Origin: Candidatus Altarchaeum sp. | Lineage (GTDB): Archaea > Altiarchaeota > Altiarchaeia > Altiarchaeales > Altiarchaeaceae | Direction of reading: 5' to 3' | Assembly (NCBI GenBank): GCA_018260755.1 | Contig: JAGTWP010000007.1 | Span: 1-38,372 of the forward strand | Length of the DNA: 38,372 bases | Shown: positions 22,261 to 28,907 of the stretch, piece by piece | How positions within the stretch are numbered: the first letter of the stretch is position 1 | How the letters are laid out: every line of letters starts with the position of its first letter | Translations under genes and position numbers: made by a program | Notes under the pieces: model-generated | Told to the model about the DNA's origin: nothing | The model's input: only the letters and a program-made list of their open reading frames with translations | Database searches by the model: none

Positions 22261-23583
22261 GTGTTTCAAATTCAGACAAATCTGTTAGGGTGCTTTGCAA
22301 TCAGAGACGGAAAAATAATATCATCTCATTCATTTATTTCGGAACAAAAGACAGCTGCCGAAATTGCAAAAGACCTCATTTATGCGAGAAAAAATTTACT
22401 TCCCGAAGAGCGTGAAATAATAAAGGACTTAAGTAAATCCGGACAGAGCTTTGAAGTTGCTATAAACAACCATCAACGACTAAATGAAGAAAAAGAAAAA
22501 TTTAATGTCCGTTTTACTGAAATTTCCCCTTCAAAAGTTATCCCGCTTGAAGAAATATCCGGACAGATTATGTTAAGTAAGGAAGAACTAAAAGGACATA
22601 TGTGGGCTGTAAATTTGGAAATAACAAAGGAGGAGATGAGGGTTCAGGAGACAGATAAAGTAGCAATTCAGTTAGTCGGTGCGATAGATGAATTAAATAC
22701 CATGTTAAATTTAATGGATGAACGATTACACGAATATTATGGAACATATTTTCCGGAAATTGATGCTATCACCGACCACGAAATTTATGCGTCAATTGCT
22801 GCCTTGGGAAACAGAGAAAATTTAGATTTGAAAAATATAAATTTAAGCGAAAAAGTAAAGGAAAAAACAAAAGAAGAAGGTCTTACATCATTCGGAATGA
22901 AATTAGAAGATAAATATATAAGCGGTGCCTCTCTGATGGCATCTCAGATTTTAAATTTATATGGTTTAAAGACACAGCTTGAAGAAAATTTAAAAAAAGT
23001 AATGACTGAAATATGCCCGAATATTACTTATCTTGCAGGACATCTGCTTGGGGCAAGATTACTGCTGCATACCGGCTCTCTTGAAAGAATGGCTTTTATG
23101 CCTGCAAGTACAATTCAGATGTTGGGAGCGGAAAAAGCACTCTTTAAATTTTTAAGAACAAAAAAACTACCGCCTAAACACGGAATAATATTTACCCTGC
23201 CGGAAATAAACAGCGCACAAAAGAAAGACAGAGGAAAAATTTCAAGAAATTTCGCAGCAAAGGTGGCGATTGCCGCAAAGGTTGATTATTTTAAAGGTGA
23301 ATTTGTCGGAGTTGAACTTAAAGATAAATTTAATAAGTGTGTTGAAAATTTAAAAAAGAATACTAAAAATTTTAAACATAACGAGGTTAAAAATTTCAGA
23401 CATGAATATGAAGGTGGTGAAAATTTCAGACATGATAATGAAAACAGACATAATAATGAAAATTTCAGACATGATGAAGTTAAAAATTTCGACCATGACC
23501 CTGCGGGACATGGAAGTGCCGGAAATTTTAGACCTAAAGGAGATGGTGTTGAAAATTTTAAACATAAAAAACACAGGTATTAG
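22261..23583 (+). CDS. nop5: Nop5/Nop56-like C/D box RNP scaffold protein
   Basis: Archaeal Nop5, which bridges L7Ae and fibrillarin on C/D box guide RNAs for 2'-O-methylation of rRNA and tRNA. GTG start. The N-terminal fibrillarin-binding domain (1-110) is followed by a coiled coil (KEEMRVQETDKVAIQLVGAI...LNTMLNLMDERLHEYY) and the Nop domain with its signature: LAGHLLGARLLLHTGSLERM, AFMPASTIQMLGAEKALFKF and LPPKHGIIFTLPEIN. After about residue 376 the usual Lys/Glu tail is replaced by a 64-residue repeat tail rich in Asn, His, Phe and Asp (units like ENFRHD). Fibrillarin, commonly next door in archaea, is not here; the next gene is porA on the other strand. Confidence 0.94.
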   Translation: MFQIQTNLLGCFAIRDGKIISSHSFISEQKTAAEIAKDLIYARKNLLPEEREIIKDLSKSGQSFEVAINNHQRLNEEKEKFNVRFTEISPSKVIPLEEISGQIMLSKEELKGHMWAVNLEITKEEMRVQETDKVAIQLVGAIDELNTMLNLMDERLHEYYGTYFPEIDAITDHEIYASIAALGNRENLDLKNINLSEKVKEKTKEEGLTSFGMKLEDKYISGASLMASQILNLYGLKTQLEENLKKVMTEICPNITYLAGHLLGARLLLHTGSLERMAFMPASTIQMLGAEKALFKFLRTKKLPPKHGIIFTLPEINSAQKKDRGKISRNFAAKVAIAAKVDYFKGEFVGVELKDKFNKCVENLKKNTKNFKHNEVKNFRHEYEGGENFRHDNENRHNNENFRHDEVKNFDHDPAGHGSAGNFRPKGDGVENFKHKKHRY

Positions 23584-25653: not shown

Positions 25654-26823
<1,170 letters not shown>

Positions 26824-26970: not shown

Positions 26971-28254
26971 ATGAAATTTTACATAGAGGAACATAAGGGT
27001 AATTCAGTTGATGAAGGAAAGATTGAAATCGTTGAAAGAAAAGGACTTGGCCATCCTGATTATATGGCAGACAGCATCGCAGAGGCATTCTCGCGAAATT
27101 TAAGCAAATATTACATTGAACACTTCGGAACGATATTGCATCACAATGTTGACAAACTTGAGATTGTCGGAGGAAATGTAGATGTTGAATTTGGCGGGGG
27201 AAAATTTTTAAAGCCGATGCTCATATTCTTTTCTGGAAGAGCCACTGCCAAAGTCGGGAACGAAAATGTCCCGCTTGCAGAAATTGCCAAACAATCCGCA
27301 AAAAATTTTATAAAAGAAAATTACAGATTTGTAAATCCCGATGATGAGAAACAAATTAAATTTATGGTTGAAACAAAAAGCGGATCTACCGACCTGGTTG
27401 GCGTTTATGGCAGGAAAGATGCATTAAGCAGCGGAAAAATTTTGGCAAACGACACATCTATCGGAATCGGTTATGCACCGCTTACAATTACTGAAAGAAC
27501 TATTAAGGAACTTGAAGTGTATTTAAACTCAAAAAAATTTAAGGAAATGTATCCTTACAGCGGCGAGGACATCAAAATTATGGGCACAAGAATTGATAAA
27601 AAACTAGACCTGACAATAGCAATGGGATTTGTATCAAAATTTGTTAATAGTGAGAGCGATTACTGGAAATACAAAGGTAAAATAATGGAAGAAATAAGAA
27701 AATTTGTTAAGTCAAAAATTTCAGACAGTGAAATTTCATTGAATGAAAAAGGCGTTGACCTGGGCGAGAACGGAAGCAAGGGAATATATCTGAATACTGC
27801 TGATGTCAGAAAAAAGGGAGAAGAGAAAGGCAACATATATCTGACATTAACAGGAATGTCTGCCGAACAGGGCGATGACGGAGCGGTCGGAAGGGGAAAC
27901 AGAGTTAACGGAATAATTCCGTTTCAGAGACCTTTGAGCATGGAGGCGGTTGCAGGCAAGAATCCGGTAAATCACATCGGAAAACTTTATAATGTTATGG
28001 CATTCCGTCTTGCGACTCAAATTTACAGCGAATTAAGCAAAGAAATCAGACAGGTTGAGGTTAAATTGCTCTCACAAATAGGAATTTCAATTACGGATCC
28101 GTACATTGCTTATGCATCGGTAATTCCTATAGGTAATGTAAAGGTAAGCGATCTTGAAGGAAAAATAAAGAAAATCTTTGAAGAGGAATTGACCAAAGAG
28201 AAATTTGAAAATTTAAGGAAAGAGTTTGTTGATGGAAAAATAGAGGTCTGCTAA
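26971..28254 (+). CDS. mat: S-adenosylmethionine synthetase (archaeal type)
   Basis: Archaeal methionine adenosyltransferase (MAT_arch), making SAM from ATP and methionine; unrelated in sequence to bacterial MetK. Length 427 aa is near the usual 400. Hallmarks are IEIVERKGLGHPDYMADSIA, HNVDKLEIVGGNVDVEFGG, GSTDLVGVY, NDTSIGIGYAPL, TGMSAEQGDDGAVGRGNRVN and FQRPLSMEAVAGKNPVNHIG. The ATG at 26971 begins exactly at the conserved N-terminus (FYIEEHKGN). SAM is used by TrmI and Pcm in this window. Confidence 0.96.
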   Translation: MKFYIEEHKGNSVDEGKIEIVERKGLGHPDYMADSIAEAFSRNLSKYYIEHFGTILHHNVDKLEIVGGNVDVEFGGGKFLKPMLIFFSGRATAKVGNENVPLAEIAKQSAKNFIKENYRFVNPDDEKQIKFMVETKSGSTDLVGVYGRKDALSSGKILANDTSIGIGYAPLTITERTIKELEVYLNSKKFKEMYPYSGEDIKIMGTRIDKKLDLTIAMGFVSKFVNSESDYWKYKGKIMEEIRKFVKSKISDSEISLNEKGVDLGENGSKGIYLNTADVRKKGEEKGNIYLTLTGMSAEQGDDGAVGRGNRVNGIIPFQRPLSMEAVAGKNPVNHIGKLYNVMAFRLATQIYSELSKEIRQVEVKLLSQIGISITDPYIAYASVIPIGNVKVSDLEGKIKKIFEEELTKEKFENLRKEFVDGKIEVC

Positions 28255-28273: not shown

Positions 28274-28516
28274 GTAACTATTCAGCCACCCAAAAAATTA
28301 CGAGTAAATTTTTTGATTTTTACGCTCACTTCGTTCGTGTATTTTAAAATCTTTGAGATTTTAAAATTGTATTTTTTGAAATTTTACACTCACTTCGTTC
28401 GTGCATTTTCAAACAAGTTTGAAAATCGCAGGTATTAAAAATATTTGAAATATTTTTTAAGATTGAAAATTTATTTATAAATTTTCAGTAAATTTTTGTA
28501 CCCTCTGAATAGTTAC
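28274..28516. mobile_element. GTAAC-end MITE, copy C
   Basis: A 243-bp non-coding element with ends gtaactattcagccacc and, reversed, gtaactattcagagg. It is flanked by a perfect 8-bp direct repeat agaaattt (28266-28273 and 28517-28524), the target duplication. Read in reverse, the first about 90 bp agree nearly base for base with copy B (for example ttactgaaaatttataaata). The GTAA ends with 8-bp duplication are the IS66-family signature, but it encodes no transposase. The right end is 18 bp before the C/D box sRNA. Confidence 0.9.
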
Positions 28517-28534
28517 AGAAATTTAATTATAATT

Positions 28535-28594
28535 GCTATTATGATGACTCTTCGTGCCTCTGATTAATGATGATATCGCCAAACCCTGAATAGC
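28535..28594 (+). ncRNA. C/D box guide sRNA
   Basis: A complete archaeal C/D box sRNA in the gene-free stretch between metK and the DUF424 gene. Terminal stem GCTAT (28535-28539) pairs with ATAGC (28590-28594). Box C is ATGATGA (28541-28547), box D' is CTGA (28560-28563), box C' is ATGATGA (28567-28573) and box D is CTGA (28586-28589). All four match the consensus exactly. Both guides are 12 nt (ctcttcgtgcct and tatcgccaaacc) and the D'-C' spacer is 3 nt, the typical archaeal layout. By the N+5 rule the D guide pairs with GGUUUGGC, a sequence found in the 23S peptidyl-transferase region of many species (about U2493 in E. coli numbering). The D' target is not identified. Nop5, the protein scaffold, is at 22.3 kb. 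Confidence 0.88.
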
Positions 28595-28616
28595 AAATTT
28601 AAATTTACATTTTACT

Positions 28617-28907
28617 ATGTTCGCAAAGGTGTATGAAGTGGAAAATGAGTATATGGTTGCGGTGTGTGAAAAGTCCCTAATCGGAAAGACATTTAAGAAA
28701 GGAAAAATAACACTTAAACTTACAGAGGACTTTTACAAAGGTGAAGAAATAAGCGAAGATAAATTACTGGAACTGCTTAATAATGCAACAATTGCAAATT
28801 TAGTCGGAAAGCCGGTAAATTTAGCGATAAATCACAATCTTATTGATGAAGATGGAGTTATGGAAATTTCAGGTGTCAAATATGCACAAATTTTTGTTAT
28901 GAAATAA
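28617..28907 (+). CDS. DUF424 family protein
   Basis: A 96-aa archaeal DUF424 protein (COG2412). Recognised by VAVCEKSLIGKTFKKGKITLKL, the FYKGEEISEDKLLELLNNAT region and a conserved NLVGKPVNLAI segment. The family is nearly universal in euryarchaea and is suspected of an RNA-related role, but no function is proven. It starts 22 bp after the C/D sRNA, so the two may share a transcript. The first ATG follows 'ttactatg'; no better upstream start exists. The exchanger gene follows 31 bp later on the same strand. Confidence 0.87.
   Translation: MFAKVYEVENEYMVAVCEKSLIGKTFKKGKITLKLTEDFYKGEEISEDKLLELLNNATIANLVGKPVNLAINHNLIDEDGVMEISGVKYAQIFVMK

Follow-up and report, generated by a model that had tools for sequence, protein, structure and literature searches.

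In the part of the survey by Dennis et al. (2015; PMC4644070) on which we draw, U/C2880 of their alignment, equivalent to E. coli C2606, is the only site for which guided methylation is predicted in each of the six thermophilic archaea (6/6). The corresponding sRNAs, Neq sR10, Tte sR152, Sac sR13, Pca sR30, Mka sR3, and Iho sR6, resemble an element of Candidatus Altarchaeum described here both in the anatomy of their boxes and in carrying a guide to the C2606 nucleotide. Their second guides, as given in the same part of the source, address unrelated sites in the vicinity (C2864, G2908, U2826, C2807), a defective one, or none at all, whereas the second guide of the Altarchaeum sRNA is predicted to address a facing strand located ~540 nt away. 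Dennis et al. also describe sRNAs that pair with distant strands of a single helix, for which a chaperone role has only been proposed; sR15 and sR17 of Nanoarchaeum equitans (16S helices 30 and 28; PMC4644070) are similar to the present case in that two guides fall on two strands of one long-range helix. Table 3 of that paper, in the portion used here, holds no entry for an sRNA pairing the sites equivalent to E. coli 2056 and 2606.

Anatomy and conservation of the element

The element occupies positions 28541-28589 on the + strand of the window, that is, the whole stretch of 38,372 nt that was analysed. It is composed of box C (ATGATGA, 28541-28547), the D' guide (CTCTTCGTGCCT, 28548-28559), box D' (CTGA, 28560-28563), a D'-C' spacer (TTA, 28564-28566), box C' (ATGATGA, 28567-28573), the D guide (TATCGCCAAACC, 28574-28585), and box D (CTGA, 28586-28589). 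Every letter of the four perfect consensus boxes agrees with an earlier sequence-only reading of this DNA, as do, letter by letter, the 12-nt length of both guides and the 3-nt spacer. The terminal stem described in that reading is also present but is longer than claimed, with 7 bp instead of 5 bp formed between the 5' arm (TTGCTAT, 28533-28539) and the 3' arm (ATAGCAA, 28590-28596), which together close the C/D kink-turn. The flanking genes on the + strand encode an archaeal S-adenosylmethionine synthetase (26971-28254) and a DUF424 protein (28617-28907). Two further observations concern this neighborhood: a repeated intergenic motif, (t)acgctcacttcgttcgtg..., has two copies in the window (28320-28430; also L036) and another beside the sRNA in the sibling genome G003, and a strong gene for Sep-tRNA:Cys-tRNA synthase (SepCysS) on the - strand (25654-26814) points to the two-step route to Cys-tRNA.

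The full four-box pattern, allowing up to three mismatches, occurs once in the 38-kb window and in none of 100 dinucleotide-preserving shuffles. A looser three-box C/D pattern has 4 matches in the 1.32-Mb draft genome, and its reversed form, used as a control, has none. In the covariance search that the sequence-only reading had proposed, nearly all Rfam matches at the element under a relaxed threshold belong to C/D box families and share the + strand and the same coordinates, but none rises above its gathering cut-off, so that membership in a named C/D family is not assigned. The best match is to the Pyrococcus snoPyro_CD family (RF00095), which, along with sR14 (RF01145) and sR9 (RF01312), aligns box for box, although the scores are 18-24 bits against gathering cut-offs of 36-45 and the guides are unrelated. 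Such low family scores are expected because guides dominate RNAs this short.

The element is present in all three of the other Candidatus Altarchaeum/Altiarchaeales genomes found (G001, G002, and G003), and the D' half is contained in three public records (Candidatus Altarchaeum HURL_140, Altiarchaeales archaeon A3, and Altarchaeum CG2_30_32_3053). Over the span of box C to the D guide, identity to the window across the four genomes is 43-45 of 44-45 bases, compared to ~55-70% in the flanks. Boxes C, D', and C' are the same in 4/4 genomes, whereas box D is CTGA only in the window and G001, with G002 reading CGGA and G003 CTCA; the siblings being draft metagenome assemblies, decay of box D and assembly error are indistinguishable. 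The conserved boxes that the sequence-only reading looked to in related genomes are found in all three siblings, with box D degenerate in two. Across the four genomes, most guide substitutions affect position 12, the one most distant from the box: this is the sole variable base of the D' guide among siblings, and in the D guide it differs in G003, while G002 is without one C adjoining box D. The terminal stem is kept in G003 (GCTAT/ATAGC), unreadable (N) in G001, and weak in G002. Outside the genus, a search of 29 genomes from the phylum gave no exact-pattern relative. A broad scan of genome contigs yielded nothing beyond the three sibling genomes and a single Neisseria contig; the latter match is taken as chance.

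Fibrillarin, Nop5, and L7Ae are all encoded in the genome. The gene for the C/D sRNP core protein Nop5/aNOP56 lies in the same window (22261-23583, + strand); it scores 293.6 bits (E 2.6e-87) against PRK14552, below the equivalog cut-off of 452, and is above the cut-off of the Pfam Nop domain (PF01798, E 2e-51). Nop5 and fibrillarin genes are often neighbors in archaea; here fibrillarin is encoded on another contig (G000:C55:11254-11898) and does not adjoin the window copy of Nop5.

Because of the boxes, the shuffles, the conservation within the genus against diverged flanks, and the presence of genes for fibrillarin, Nop5, and L7Ae, we regard the element as a C/D box methylation-guide sRNA, as the sequence-only reading had it; the stem and the weak C/D matches in Rfam agree with this. 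As judged from sequence, it is very probably an archaeal double-guide C/D box sRNA with predicted sites at U2601 (D guide; E. coli C2606) and A2058 (D' guide; E. coli 2056) of the 23S rRNA. The RNA would be transcribed and bound by L7Ae, Nop5, and fibrillarin, whereupon the D guide would direct 2'-O-methylation of U2601 and the D' guide that of A2058. The uncultured lineage would thereby join those archaea predicted to guide methylation at E. coli 2606.

Predicted targets in the 23S rRNA

Both guides were scanned under the N+5 rule against the 16S and 23S rRNA taken from the same genome and against 30 of its 39 tRNAs, with 5S left out. In this alignment, which the sequence-only reading had suggested, both guides have their best matches in the organism's own 23S rRNA (10.3, against runner-ups of 8.8 and 6.6 in rRNA), and neither has a comparable target in the 30 tRNAs, where the best score is 6.9. 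The D' guide, for which the earlier reading could place no target, pairs with GGGCACGAAGAC at 23S 2054-2065 through one G.U followed by ten consecutive Watson-Crick pairs, the predicted 2'-O-methylated nucleotide being A2058. The D guide pairs with AGTTTGGCGGTA at 23S 2597-2608; after a mismatched position 1 come eight Watson-Crick pairs, a G.U, and two further Watson-Crick pairs, and the nucleotide predicted to be 2'-O-methylated is U2601. In alignment with the E. coli 23S rRNA, A2058 corresponds to G2056 and U2601 to C2606.

In 10,000 trials with composition-shuffled guides, the observed score was reached by 4.6% (D') and 1.1% (D), and 0.21% of shuffled D' guides did so no more than 10 nt from A2058. 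The D' duplex qualifies under the strict pairing criterion by virtue of its ten Watson-Crick pairs and the D duplex under the relaxed criterion only; with eight consecutive Watson-Crick pairs and a mismatch next to box D, the latter falls short of the nine-consecutive-pair cut-off of Dennis et al. (PMC4644070). Nevertheless, the D duplex is long enough despite its terminal mismatch because methylation is high with duplexes of 8-10 bp (Yang et al. 2016, cited in the part of PMC7089733 used here).

Predicted pairing with two strands of one helix

Co-folding places the target strands of A2058 and U2601 opposite each other at the top of one long-range 23S helix, which, from the 23S structure, we take to be helix 73. 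The setting thus differs from that of N. equitans sR15 and sR17, which address 16S helices. At the pair A2058-U2607 the genus has A-U, and three other genomes of the class have G and C in the corresponding alignment columns; this covariation supports the pair. The D' guide is complementary to the form found in the genus and not to that of the relatives. The exact pairs atop the helix are uncertain, since those in the co-fold differ slightly and aligning this region with E. coli takes a gap of one base. With the D site taken as given, the probability that both guides match facing sites by chance is about 0.011 x 0.0021, or near 2 in 100,000 (~1 in 40,000).

Hence, to the extent that base-pairing predictions allow, a single sRNA appears to grip both strands of one long-range helix, 23S helix 73. 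Simultaneous binding by both guides would keep the distant strands close together while the helix is still open; such a chaperone role suggests itself because the target strands face each other atop the helix. That the sRNA binds both strands of helix 73 at its top, on the edge of the peptidyl transferase centre, acting as a folding chaperone as well as a methylation guide, with a lineage-specific predicted D' site (E. coli 2056) by the macrolide-binding pocket, is a tentative proposal to which we give real but less than even weight. The predicted grip on the two strands of a helix in the 23S core makes the sRNA a clean, testable case and is the sole point for specialists; beyond it, the element is a matter of routine annotation and belongs to an ordinary kind of archaeal sRNA.

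The strength of the D' duplex relative to the D duplex also accommodates another scenario, in which the sRNA is real and its D' guide active at A2058, with the D guide serving only as an anchor or decaying, so that one site is methylated. Single-site activity has been described for some double guides, and the degenerate box D of G002 and G003, together with the base missing from the D guide of G002, would fit such decay. Yet box D shows no departure from the consensus in the window or G001, the core of the D guide is nearly unchanged in 4/4 genomes, and the D site is the one most widely guided in archaea, all of which make this scenario unlikely compared with activity of both guides. An arrangement of boxes by chance, with no gene behind it, draws on the Rfam scores below gathering cut-offs but accounts poorly for the 0/100 shuffles, for the retention of the element in four genomes while its flanks diverged, and for two matched targets on one helix; we consider it highly improbable.

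The proposal of the sequence-only reading that the D guide targets the segment around E. coli U2493 had its basis in a match of eight guide bases to the E. coli sequence. Only seven match: E. coli reads GUGUUUGGC and not GGUUUGGC, leaving the base that adjoins box D unmatched. In the organism's own 23S rRNA the segment is GGCUUGGU (GGCUUGGUACC, GGCTTGGT), and it pairs badly, with a mismatch at position 3, a wobble at position 8, and no pairing beyond position 8. For this 23S rRNA the proposal is refuted and its probability practically nil, the site equivalent to E. coli 2606 being the better target.

Other C/D sRNAs of the genome

Three other C/D sRNAs of the genome, found and scored with the same pattern and procedure, served as positive controls and match sites of known archaeal type, namely U2552, G2251, and C34. 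U2552 and G2251 are both named in the part of Dennis et al. (PMC4644070) used here. The D guide of the first (L057; G000:C76:7868-7901, - strand), GATGAACAACCA, forms 11 Watson-Crick pairs at 23S 2547 (E. coli U2552, in the A-loop), and its D' guide forms 9 pairs at 16S 1339 (own numbering). The second (L054; G000:C65:13193-13225, - strand) lies between two tRNA genes, and its D guide forms 11 Watson-Crick pairs with the anticodon loop of a CAU tRNA, the N+5 nucleotide being C34 (tRNA position taken from the letters that matched); in archaea, the first anticodon position of tRNA-Met is known to be a target of methylation. The D' guide of the same sRNA has a match at 23S 600 (own numbering). 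In the third (L040; G000:C16:3676-3707, - strand), the sites are E. coli G2251 (P-loop) for the D' guide and E. coli 2438 for the D guide. A D' guide similar to that of L040 is found in G012, a genome from another family of the class.
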